DNA of 64,000 nucleotides from an uncultured Actinomycetes bacterium (GTDB taxonomy: Bacteria; Actinomycetota; Acidimicrobiia; Acidimicrobiales; RAAP-2), in contig CAIORQ010000092.1 of assembly GCA_903860745.1 (NCBI GenBank), positions 1 through 64,000 on the forward strand, given 5' to 3'. The position numbers were made by a program, and so were the translations under genes. Shown here in pieces: positions 4,613 to 17,240 of this stretch. Numbering within the stretch: position 1 is the first letter of the stretch; each line of letters starts with the position of its first letter. The notes below the pieces were generated by a model. The model worked only from the letters and a program-made list of their open reading frames with translations, was not told the DNA's origin and did no database searches.

Positions 4613-5236
4613 GTGGCGCTGCGGCGCTCGGTGGAGGGCGGCCGGCGCGGGAGTGCCAGCACGTTGCTCATCGTGGGCCTCGCCAATCCGGGTGAGGAGT
4701 ACGCGGGTTCGCGCCACAACATCGGCGGCGACGCCGTGCGCCTGCTCGCGCAGCGCCGCGGGGTCCGCCTCGCGCTCGAGCGCCGTCAACGCGCGGTGAG
4801 CGCCACCATCACGACTCCTCGGGGACCCGTCACCCTGGCGGTGCCCACCACCTACATGAACGAATCGGGTGCGGCGCTGCCCCCGCTGCTGACCCGGACC
4901 TCGTTGGCGGGGCTGACGCACTTGGTCGTGGCCCACGACGACCTCGACCTCGAACCGGGACGCCTGCAACTGCGTCTCGGAGGGGGCCTCGCCGGCCACA
5001 ACGGCCTGCGCTCCATCGCCCAGGTGCTCGGGAGCCAGGACTTCGCACGCCTGCGCATCGGCATCGGGCGTCCCACGCACAAGGACCAGGTCACCGACTA
5101 CGTCCTCAAGCGACCCACCGGTGCGCGCAAGGCCGCCCTGGAGCTCGACGTGGCGCGCGCCGCCGACGCCCTCGAGGTCCTGGTCGACACCGAGTTCGAG
5201 GTCGCGCAGCGTCAGATCAACGCCGCCCGTGACTGA
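4613..5236 (+). CDS. pth: Peptidyl-tRNA hydrolase
   Basis: It cleaves peptidyl-tRNA released from stalled ribosomes. The protein shows GLANPGEEYAGSRHNIG, containing the catalytic histidine and tRNA-acceptor asparagines, PTTYMNESG, and the conserved HDDLDLEPGRLQLR followed by GGLAGHNGLRSI. The listed GTG start gives 207 residues with about 16 extra N-terminal residues. A TTG at 4664, right before LIVGLANPG, would give the usual length, so the start is uncertain. The end overlaps mfd by 8 nt. Confidence 0.95.
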   Translation: MALRRSVEGGRRGSASTLLIVGLANPGEEYAGSRHNIGGDAVRLLAQRRGVRLALERRQRAVSATITTPRGPVTLAVPTTYMNESGAALPPLLTRTSLAGLTHLVVAHDDLDLEPGRLQLRLGGGLAGHNGLRSIAQVLGSQDFARLRIGIGRPTHKDQVTDYVLKRPTGARKAALELDVARAADALEVLVDTEFEVAQRQINAARD

Positions 5237-15879: not shown

Positions 15880-17073
15880 CTAGGGTCGAGCCGCGCCGAT
15901 GAGTCCACCCGTGAAGAGGGGTGCGAGGCTGATGTTGGTGCCGGTGTAGGCCGCGGCGATGATGGTGTTGGTGCCCCAGGGGCCCGAGCCCACGTACATC
16001 ACGACGTGATCGACCGCGCTGTCGCCGTCGAGGTTGTAGTAGTAGAGCAGGTCGCCGGGTCGCAGCTGGGTCAGGGGGACGTGGGGCAGGCTGGCCCACT
16101 GGTCCTCGGTGGTCCTCGGGATGGTGAAGCCCACCTTGCCCCAGGCCCACTGCACCAGACCCGAGCAGTCGAAGCCCACCCCGGGGGTCTCGCCGCCCCA
16201 GACGTAGGGCACGCCCTCCTGCTTCTCGGCCCAGGCGACGGCCGCCTCGCCCTGGGCGCTGCCGGCGGGCGAACCCGACACCTCGTTCGTCGGGGTCGGC
16301 GGGGGGGTGTTGGCGGCGATGGCGGCGAGCACCTCGTTGGCGGCGGGTTGTCCACCCACCTCCGATGCCGCGGCGATGGCCGAGGACTCCGCGGCGGTGT
16401 CGCGCACCCGGGCCGCGGCGGCGCCGGCGGCCACCTCGTAGGCGATGATCTCGCTGCGCAGGTTCGCGGTGACCTGGTCGAGGGTGGAGCGCGTCTGGTC
16501 GGCCGCCGCGATGTTCTGCGACAGCAGGGCCTGCAGGTCCAGGGTCTCGGCGTTGGCGGTGGCGTGCTCGCTCGAGAGCTGGGCGATCTCGGCGAAGAGC
16601 TTGGTGCGTTGGTGGTTGAGCCGGTCGCGCAGGCCGGTGAGGTTGCCCACCACCAGGCGTTCGAAGACCTGGCGCTCGTCGTTCGCGCCCACGTTCTGGT
16701 TGAACAGGGCGATGACCTGGTCGTTGGTGGTGCCGTAGACGTAGGCGCGCACGACGGCGCGCACCATGTGACGGGTGGTGCGATCGACCAGGACCTGTTC
16801 GGCCCGCTCCTCGGCCTGGAGGGTGAGGATGTTGGCGGTCAGCGTCGCCAGCTGGGCCTTCTCGGCGTCGTAGCGGTTGGCGGTGACCTCGCTGGACTTC
16901 TCCTGGCTGGCCAATTGGGCCGACAGCCGGGCGATCTCCGCCTTGGTCTGCGCGATGGTCTGGGCGCCGCTGCCGGACTGGTCGAGGGGCACCAGGGTGC
17001 CCACCACGACGAGGGCGGCGCTCGCGAGGAGCGCGGCCAAGGGAGTCGTGCCCCGACGACGCACGGATTTCAT
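15880..17073 (-). CDS. Secreted NlpC/P60 peptidoglycan endopeptidase with N-terminal coiled coil
   Basis: A 397-residue protein. It has a signal peptide or anchor (LAALLASAALVVVGTLVPL), a long coiled coil (about 45-230, QTKAEIARLSAQLASQEKSS), a linker, and a C-terminal NlpC/P60 domain (about 285-397). The domain shows the catalytic cysteine in VGFDCSGLVQWAWGKVGF, the histidine in DHVVMYVG, and RPGDLLYYY. Such RipA-like hydrolases cut stem peptides during cell division, and the coiled coil often keeps them inactive until contact with partners. The ATG at 17073 is 6 nt after TAGCAT, fitting a leaderless start better than the GTG at 17076. Confidence 0.9.
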   Translation of the reverse strand: MKSVRRRGTTPLAALLASAALVVVGTLVPLDQSGSGAQTIAQTKAEIARLSAQLASQEKSSEVTANRYDAEKAQLATLTANILTLQAEERAEQVLVDRTTRHMVRAVVRAYVYGTTNDQVIALFNQNVGANDERQVFERLVVGNLTGLRDRLNHQRTKLFAEIAQLSSEHATANAETLDLQALLSQNIAAADQTRSTLDQVTANLRSEIIAYEVAAGAAAARVRDTAAESSAIAAASEVGGQPAANEVLAAIAANTPPPTPTNEVSGSPAGSAQGEAAVAWAEKQEGVPYVWGGETPGVGFDCSGLVQWAWGKVGFTIPRTTEDQWASLPHVPLTQLRPGDLLYYYNLDGDSAVDHVVMYVGSGPWGTNTIIAAAYTGTNISLAPLFTGGLIGAARP

Positions 17074-17079
17074 CACCCA

Positions 17080-17085: not shown

Positions 17086-17133
17086 CCGGGACCCCTCACA
17101 CGGACCGAATGATGCGGCGGCGAATCGATGGGT

Positions 17134-17139
17134 TAGCGT
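17134..17139 (+). promoter_or_regulatory. Possible -10 box for the tRNA gene
   Basis: TAGCGT lies 15 nt upstream of the mature tRNA 5' end. No clear -35 box was found. Confidence 0.35.
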
Positions 17140-17154: not shown

Positions 17155-17228
17155 GGGGGCGTAGCCCAATTGGCAGAGGCAGGGCGCTTAAACCGCCTCC
17201 AGTGAGGGTTCGAATCCCTCCGCCCCTA
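17155..17228 (+). tRNA. tRNA with UAA anticodon (tRNA-Leu by codon), class I short variable loop
   Basis: A 74-nt cloverleaf can be drawn by hand. Acceptor GGGGGCG pairs with CGCCCCT (pair 1-72 is G-U). D-arm GCC pairs with GGC, with loop motif AATTGGCAGA. Anticodon stem GGGCG pairs with CGCCT around loop CTTAAAC. Variable loop is CCAGT. T-stem GAGGG pairs with CCCTC around TTCGAAT. Discriminator is A, and CCA is not encoded. The anticodon TAA decodes UUA leucine codons, yet bacterial tRNA-Leu normally has a long (class II) variable arm, and this one has five bases. The charged amino acid is therefore inferred only from the anticodon. Confidence 0.88.
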
Positions 17229-17240
17229 CGCCGCGCGGCG
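17229..17240 (+). terminator. GC hairpin after the tRNA (weak)
   Basis: CGCCGCGCGGCG is a perfect 12-nt palindrome directly after the tRNA (the run begins at the base following the discriminator). It has no T-tract, so a terminator role is only possible. Confidence 0.25.

Follow-up and report, generated by a model that had tools for sequence, protein, structure and literature searches.

Textbook and review accounts count bacterial tRNA-Leu among the long-armed (class II) tRNAs, and the bldA tRNA-Leu(UAA) of Streptomyces is also of that class. Charging by Escherichia coli LeuRS requires A73, the A15-U48 pair, G18G19 and A20a, whereas the sequence and folding of the variable arm are uncorrelated with charging; tRNA-Leu variants without the anticodon arm and long arm stay active, and arm-less tRNA-Leu is charged by human mitochondrial LeuRS too (PMC9976931). 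Mitochondrial tRNA-Leu(UUR) has no long arm, and its recognition by LeuRS relies mainly on A73 and A14 (PMC9976931). Among Actinomycetota, a short-loop tRNA-Leu(TAG) lies in an accessory tRNA cluster of mycobacteria (PMC6582537), and only Leu-2, -3 and -5 of M. tuberculosis are listed as long-looped, which makes Leu-1 and Leu-4 short by implication (PMC11541572). Short-loop tRNA-Leu has thus been mentioned before without emphasis, and tRNA databases probably hold such genes, but we found no paper in the open-access literature on the family described here, its breadth or its exclusion with the class II form.

We analyzed a 64-kb stretch of a draft Acidimicrobiales genome (64,000 nucleotides; hereafter, the window), in which ARAGORN placed a single tRNA (17155-17229(+), anticodon taa). 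An earlier note, made from the letters alone, had folded this gene by hand into a four-arm cloverleaf with a UAA anticodon, a short variable loop, a G-U pair at 1-72 and a discriminator A compatible with leucine, and had proposed a covariance-model search as a check. That search matched Rfam RF00005 at full length over 17155-17228 (model 1-71; 55.7 bits; E = 2.9e-10; gathering score, 29), and each of these structural claims held up, with the coordinates and fold supported by the Rfam model and by family covariation (Table 1). The gene encodes an acceptor stem GGGGGCG/CGCCCCU that includes G1-U72, a leucine-type D arm (3-bp stem, 11-nt loop), an anticodon stem GGGCG/CGCCU closing CUUAAAC, a T arm GAGGG UUCGAAU CCCUC and the discriminator A73, which is invariant in 148 relatives; the 3' CCA is absent from the gene. 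Folding of the single sequence by energy formed the acceptor and T arms and slipped the D and anticodon arms (z = -2.14), so we base the cloverleaf on the covariance model and on covarying positions in the 148 relatives.

Table 1 Features at the tRNA locus, in window coordinates
Feature	Position	Strand	Basis
tRNA-Leu(UAA) gene, class I (short variable loop), CCA not encoded	17155..17228	+	ARAGORN; Rfam RF00005, 55.7 bits; genus conservation; family covariation
Anticodon TAA within loop CTTAAAC	17189..17191	+	ARAGORN, anticodon at gene position 35
Variable loop CCAGT, 5 bases (positions 44-48), U48 opposite A15	17199..17203	+	Rfam alignment; U48 in 148/148 relatives
Divergent NlpC/P60-family gene, marks the conserved position, outside the tRNA system	15880..17076	-	Pfam PF00877; a homologue adjoins the tRNA at 36 relative loci
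TTAGCGT, conserved -10-like element, probable tRNA promoter	17133..17139	+	TTASSGT conservation in the genus

The tRNA shares with canonical class II tRNA-Leu a leucine anticodon, A73, A14, A15-U48, G18G19, A20a, the 3-bp D stem with 11-base loop, and its codon, and differs in having a five-base variable loop instead of the long arm, for which class II requires at least 10 bases. Two smaller differences lie in the D arm: C13 replaces the usual purine before A14 of host class II tRNAs, and the loop reads caattggcaga compared with gaattggcaga in the host class II Leu(UAG). Mitochondrial tRNA-Leu(UUR) shares the missing arm, but the window tRNA is bacterial with a complete GC-rich cloverleaf, and we claim no common descent. 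We also considered and rejected the allo-tRNAs, unusual bacterial tRNAs with 8/4 or 9/3 branches and in some cases leucine anticodons (PMC7609411); pairs 1-72 to 7-66 and 49-65 to 53-61 of the window tRNA form a normal 7/5 branch.

The earlier note had raised the possibility of a second, atypical leucine tRNA and had suggested looking for a normal class II tRNA-Leu(UAA) in the genome. The host assembly is a 2.13-Mb draft in 110 contigs (96.6% complete) with 40 tRNAs detected by Rfam, and ARAGORN assigned its leucine tRNAs as CAA, GAG and UAG, all class II, together with the class I UAA. We found no class II Leu(UAA) in this draft, and the corresponding pattern had no match in any of the 12 genomes sampled from the genus and family, the host genome among them. 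The window gene is therefore the only UUA decoder found, and it is not a second leucine tRNA for UUA, although a class II gene could in principle lie in an assembly gap. The host ARAGORN list also lacks Lys(UUU), Leu(CAG), Ala(UGC) and Ile(GAU), among others, for which gaps in the 110-contig draft are the likely reason.

Screening 298 genomes of the order revealed class I UAA tRNAs in 48, class II UAA tRNAs in 136 and both in none (Fisher P = 5e-15, with shared ancestry ignored). Class I UAA thus substitutes for class II UAA and is not a supplement to it. Among genomes with neither pattern, a looser class I pattern recovered four more, and one closed genome (G042) carries an intact class II Leu(UAA) slightly off the class II pattern, so these cases reflect, at least in part, the limits of that pattern. 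Intron-split tRNA-Leu(UAA) was considered as a reason, and a group I intron match over the Rfam cut-off was found in just 2 of 43 genomes; both matches lie at contig starts (G160:C28:129-356 and G050:C25:129-379), in genomes of the order for which the pattern found no UAA tRNA. The same closed genome is a mosaic, with class II leucine tRNAs for GAG, CAG and UAA and only class I for CAA and UAG. It also has an ARAGORN call of Arg(tct) near 2687910-2687981 of C1 (L370), the body of which matches the host Gln(ctg), probably owing to a mis-registered anticodon loop. The complete genome of Actinobacteria bacterium IMCC26103 has class I genes for Leu(UAA), in two copies, and for Leu(CAA), and it lacks any class II UUR tRNA, so UUA and UUG are read there by short-armed tRNAs alone.

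To define the wider family we used a search pattern specifying the D-arm motif, U33, class I spacing and the T loop, with the anticodon left free. This pattern matched 86 of the 298 genomes, while a reversed control matched none, and a scan of the GTDB genome collection gave at least 118 matching stretches. The 80 GTDB matches listed were mostly from Actinomycetota (for example, Mycobacterium, Corynebacterium, Nocardia, Rhodococcus, Bifidobacterium, Nocardioides and Microbacterium), with readable anticodons of UAA (52), CAA (21) and UAG (7). Also among the matches listed, a short-armed Leu(UAA) adjoins a short-armed Leu(CAA) in a Chloroflexaceae-labelled MAG (L252), and three further MAGs, assigned to Planctomycetota, Rokuibacteriota and Deltaproteobacteria (L220, L224 and L253), each have one Leu(UAA) copy; these cases may reflect transfer, independent origin or a binning error. 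We gathered 148 distinct family sequences, all with leucine anticodons (94 UAA, 29 CAA, 23 UAG, 1 CAG and 1 GAG). U48 and A73 lay outside the pattern's requirements and are invariant in all 148; the D-arm signature (A14, A15, G18G19 and A20a) was built into the pattern, and its conservation is not independent evidence. The acceptor, anticodon and T stems are paired in nearly all members with many two-sided changes, such as CG (108) or GC (37) at 2-71 and CG, GC, AT or TA at 28-42. The window tRNA is thus a member of a large short-armed tRNA-Leu family that replaces the long-armed form in many actinobacteria.

Comparison with homologues, another check that the earlier note had proposed, bore out the gene's persistence: a DNA search of 60 relatives found the tRNA across the genus, mostly at 95-100% identity, with the anticodon TAA in every copy of complete sequence (the exceptions, in G005, G012 and G014, lie at contig edges or N runs). 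Upstream, the element TTASSGT occurs 23-30 bases before the tRNA in 30 of 35 distinct genus sequences (shuffled mean, 0.5) and is retained although the flanks diverge; its resemblance to a -10 element suggests that the gene is transcribed. A scan for a strict sigma-70 consensus and a terminator at the tRNA returned no match. On the 3' side, many genus loci (within L041-L074) share a recurring T-rich element ending TTTAGTAG, ~20-35 bases from the tRNA. This element may represent a terminator-like tail or else belong to the following gene as its -10 element; no clear match to it follows the window tRNA. One genome, G057, carries a second, degenerate short-armed tRNA (L077, ~4885-4960, contig 20) ~2.7 kb from its intact copy, with the anticodon loop changed to CCTAAAC and mismatched stems.

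This degenerate copy, together with the accessory setting of the mycobacterial short-loop tRNA-Leu(TAG) (PMC6582537), would fit a pseudogene, mobile-element or accessory copy without a decoding role. We regard that reading as extremely improbable, as the window gene is the only UAA tRNA found, keeps one position across the genus beside the NlpC/P60 gene and a conserved upstream element, and belongs to a family with compensatory stem changes; the conserved position, upstream element and stem changes likewise led us to reject a mobile-array origin. The mycobacterial tRNA resembles the window tRNA in its phylum and short variable loop, and Mycobacterium is also among the family matches, but it is accessory beside a normal class II isoacceptor, whereas the window tRNA is core and the only one found for UAA.

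We also asked what UUA means in these genomes. In sampled stretches of four genus genomes, 22 of 28 UUA cells in conserved context (79%) align with leucine, a share within the 69-83% seen for other leucine codons; these are only 28 cells, some of them one codon compared with two genomes. The genus alignments include an invariant UUA leucine position in RTKNNPVLIGEPGVG. In IMCC26103, leucine is aligned with 55 of 85 UUA codons, a share similar to that for the other leucine codons of this genome. Judged by alignments in both the genus and IMCC26103, UUA stands for leucine in proteins, and we read it as leucine in these genomes.

These results bear on the earlier note's other suggestion, a different charging identity or use. 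In its strongest form, a tRNA of another identity (derived, for example, from Lys, Ile or Met) acquired a UAA anticodon by mutation, leaving UUA reassigned or ambiguous. The short variable loop would fit such an origin, the body is in places like those of host class I tRNAs (pairwise scores of 28 for Ile2, 26 for Trp and 21 for Lys) and an arm-less human tRNA-Leu-CAA gene is a tRNA-Met relative (PMC8450103). However, the closest host body is that of Leu(UAG), with a score of 31, all five anticodons in the family are those of leucine and UUA aligns with leucine in the genus and in IMCC26103, making this origin very unlikely. On the leucine-only anticodons and UUA alignments we reject reassignment of UUA, and with the LeuRS determinants present the suggestion finds no support.

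Of the leucine codons, UUA is used least in the window genome (27 of 139,086 codons; 0.19 per thousand) and in a second genome, G032 (0.22 per thousand), and bldA, an actinobacterial reader of rare UUA like the window tRNA, is a known switch (PMC4932002). By analogy, the window tRNA could be a leucine tRNA whose chief role is to switch the rare genes that contain UUA. We consider this improbable: the rarity is explained by the 69-72% GC content, and the same tRNA class serves lower-GC relatives with 1.2-4.6 UUA per thousand (the highest value, in G019, coming from less reliable ORF calls) and IMCC26103, where UUA reaches 26 per thousand and outnumbers every other leucine codon in an 80-kb sample. 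bldA is a proven developmental switch, and tRNAs of its type would be recognised by growth-phase-gated translation of UUA genes; the parallel measured for the window tRNA is UUA rarity.

The host genome encodes one bacterial LeuRS, an 823-aa frame that covers the profile including its C-terminal part; weaker matches to the LeuRS profile are of a size that would fit the related Ile, Val and Met enzymes. All of the LeuRS determinants (A73, A14, A15-U48, G18G19 and A20a) are present in the window tRNA, as is a leucine anticodon, UAA, with leucine anticodons also in 148 of 148 relatives. Because every listed E. coli determinant is present, we infer charging by LeuRS through the usual core determinants, along with expression and use on the ribosome. 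In the proposed mechanism, the host's single LeuRS would charge the tRNA via A73, A14, the A15-U48 Levitt pair, G18-G19 and A20a, contacts none of which should need the long variable arm, and the charged tRNA would decode UUA and probably help to read UUG. Loss of the arm would remove the main handle of SerRS, a possible advantage. Taken together, the evidence makes it highly probable that the window gene encodes a working, housekeeping tRNA-Leu(UAA), charged by the single LeuRS and the only UUA reader found. Its actinobacterial family either lost the long arm of a class II tRNA-Leu or, if derived from a class I tRNA, never had it.

A broader reading, which we offer tentatively and hold as plausible rather than probable, is that short-armed tRNA-Leu is an old, phylum-wide alternative that took the place of class II in many lineages, one codon at a time, and that LeuRS recognition and SerRS discrimination in Actinomycetota have adapted to it. 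If true, the class II rule for bacterial tRNA-Leu would not hold in much of a major phylum. A core arm-less tRNA-Leu that is the sole decoder of its codon would be a natural counterpart of the finding that E. coli LeuRS does not need the arm. For annotation, a missing arm is no ground to call such genes mis-assigned or pseudogenes. Widespread in Actinomycetota, including Mycobacterium and Corynebacterium, the family would offer a comparative system for how LeuRS and SerRS discriminate between tRNAs.
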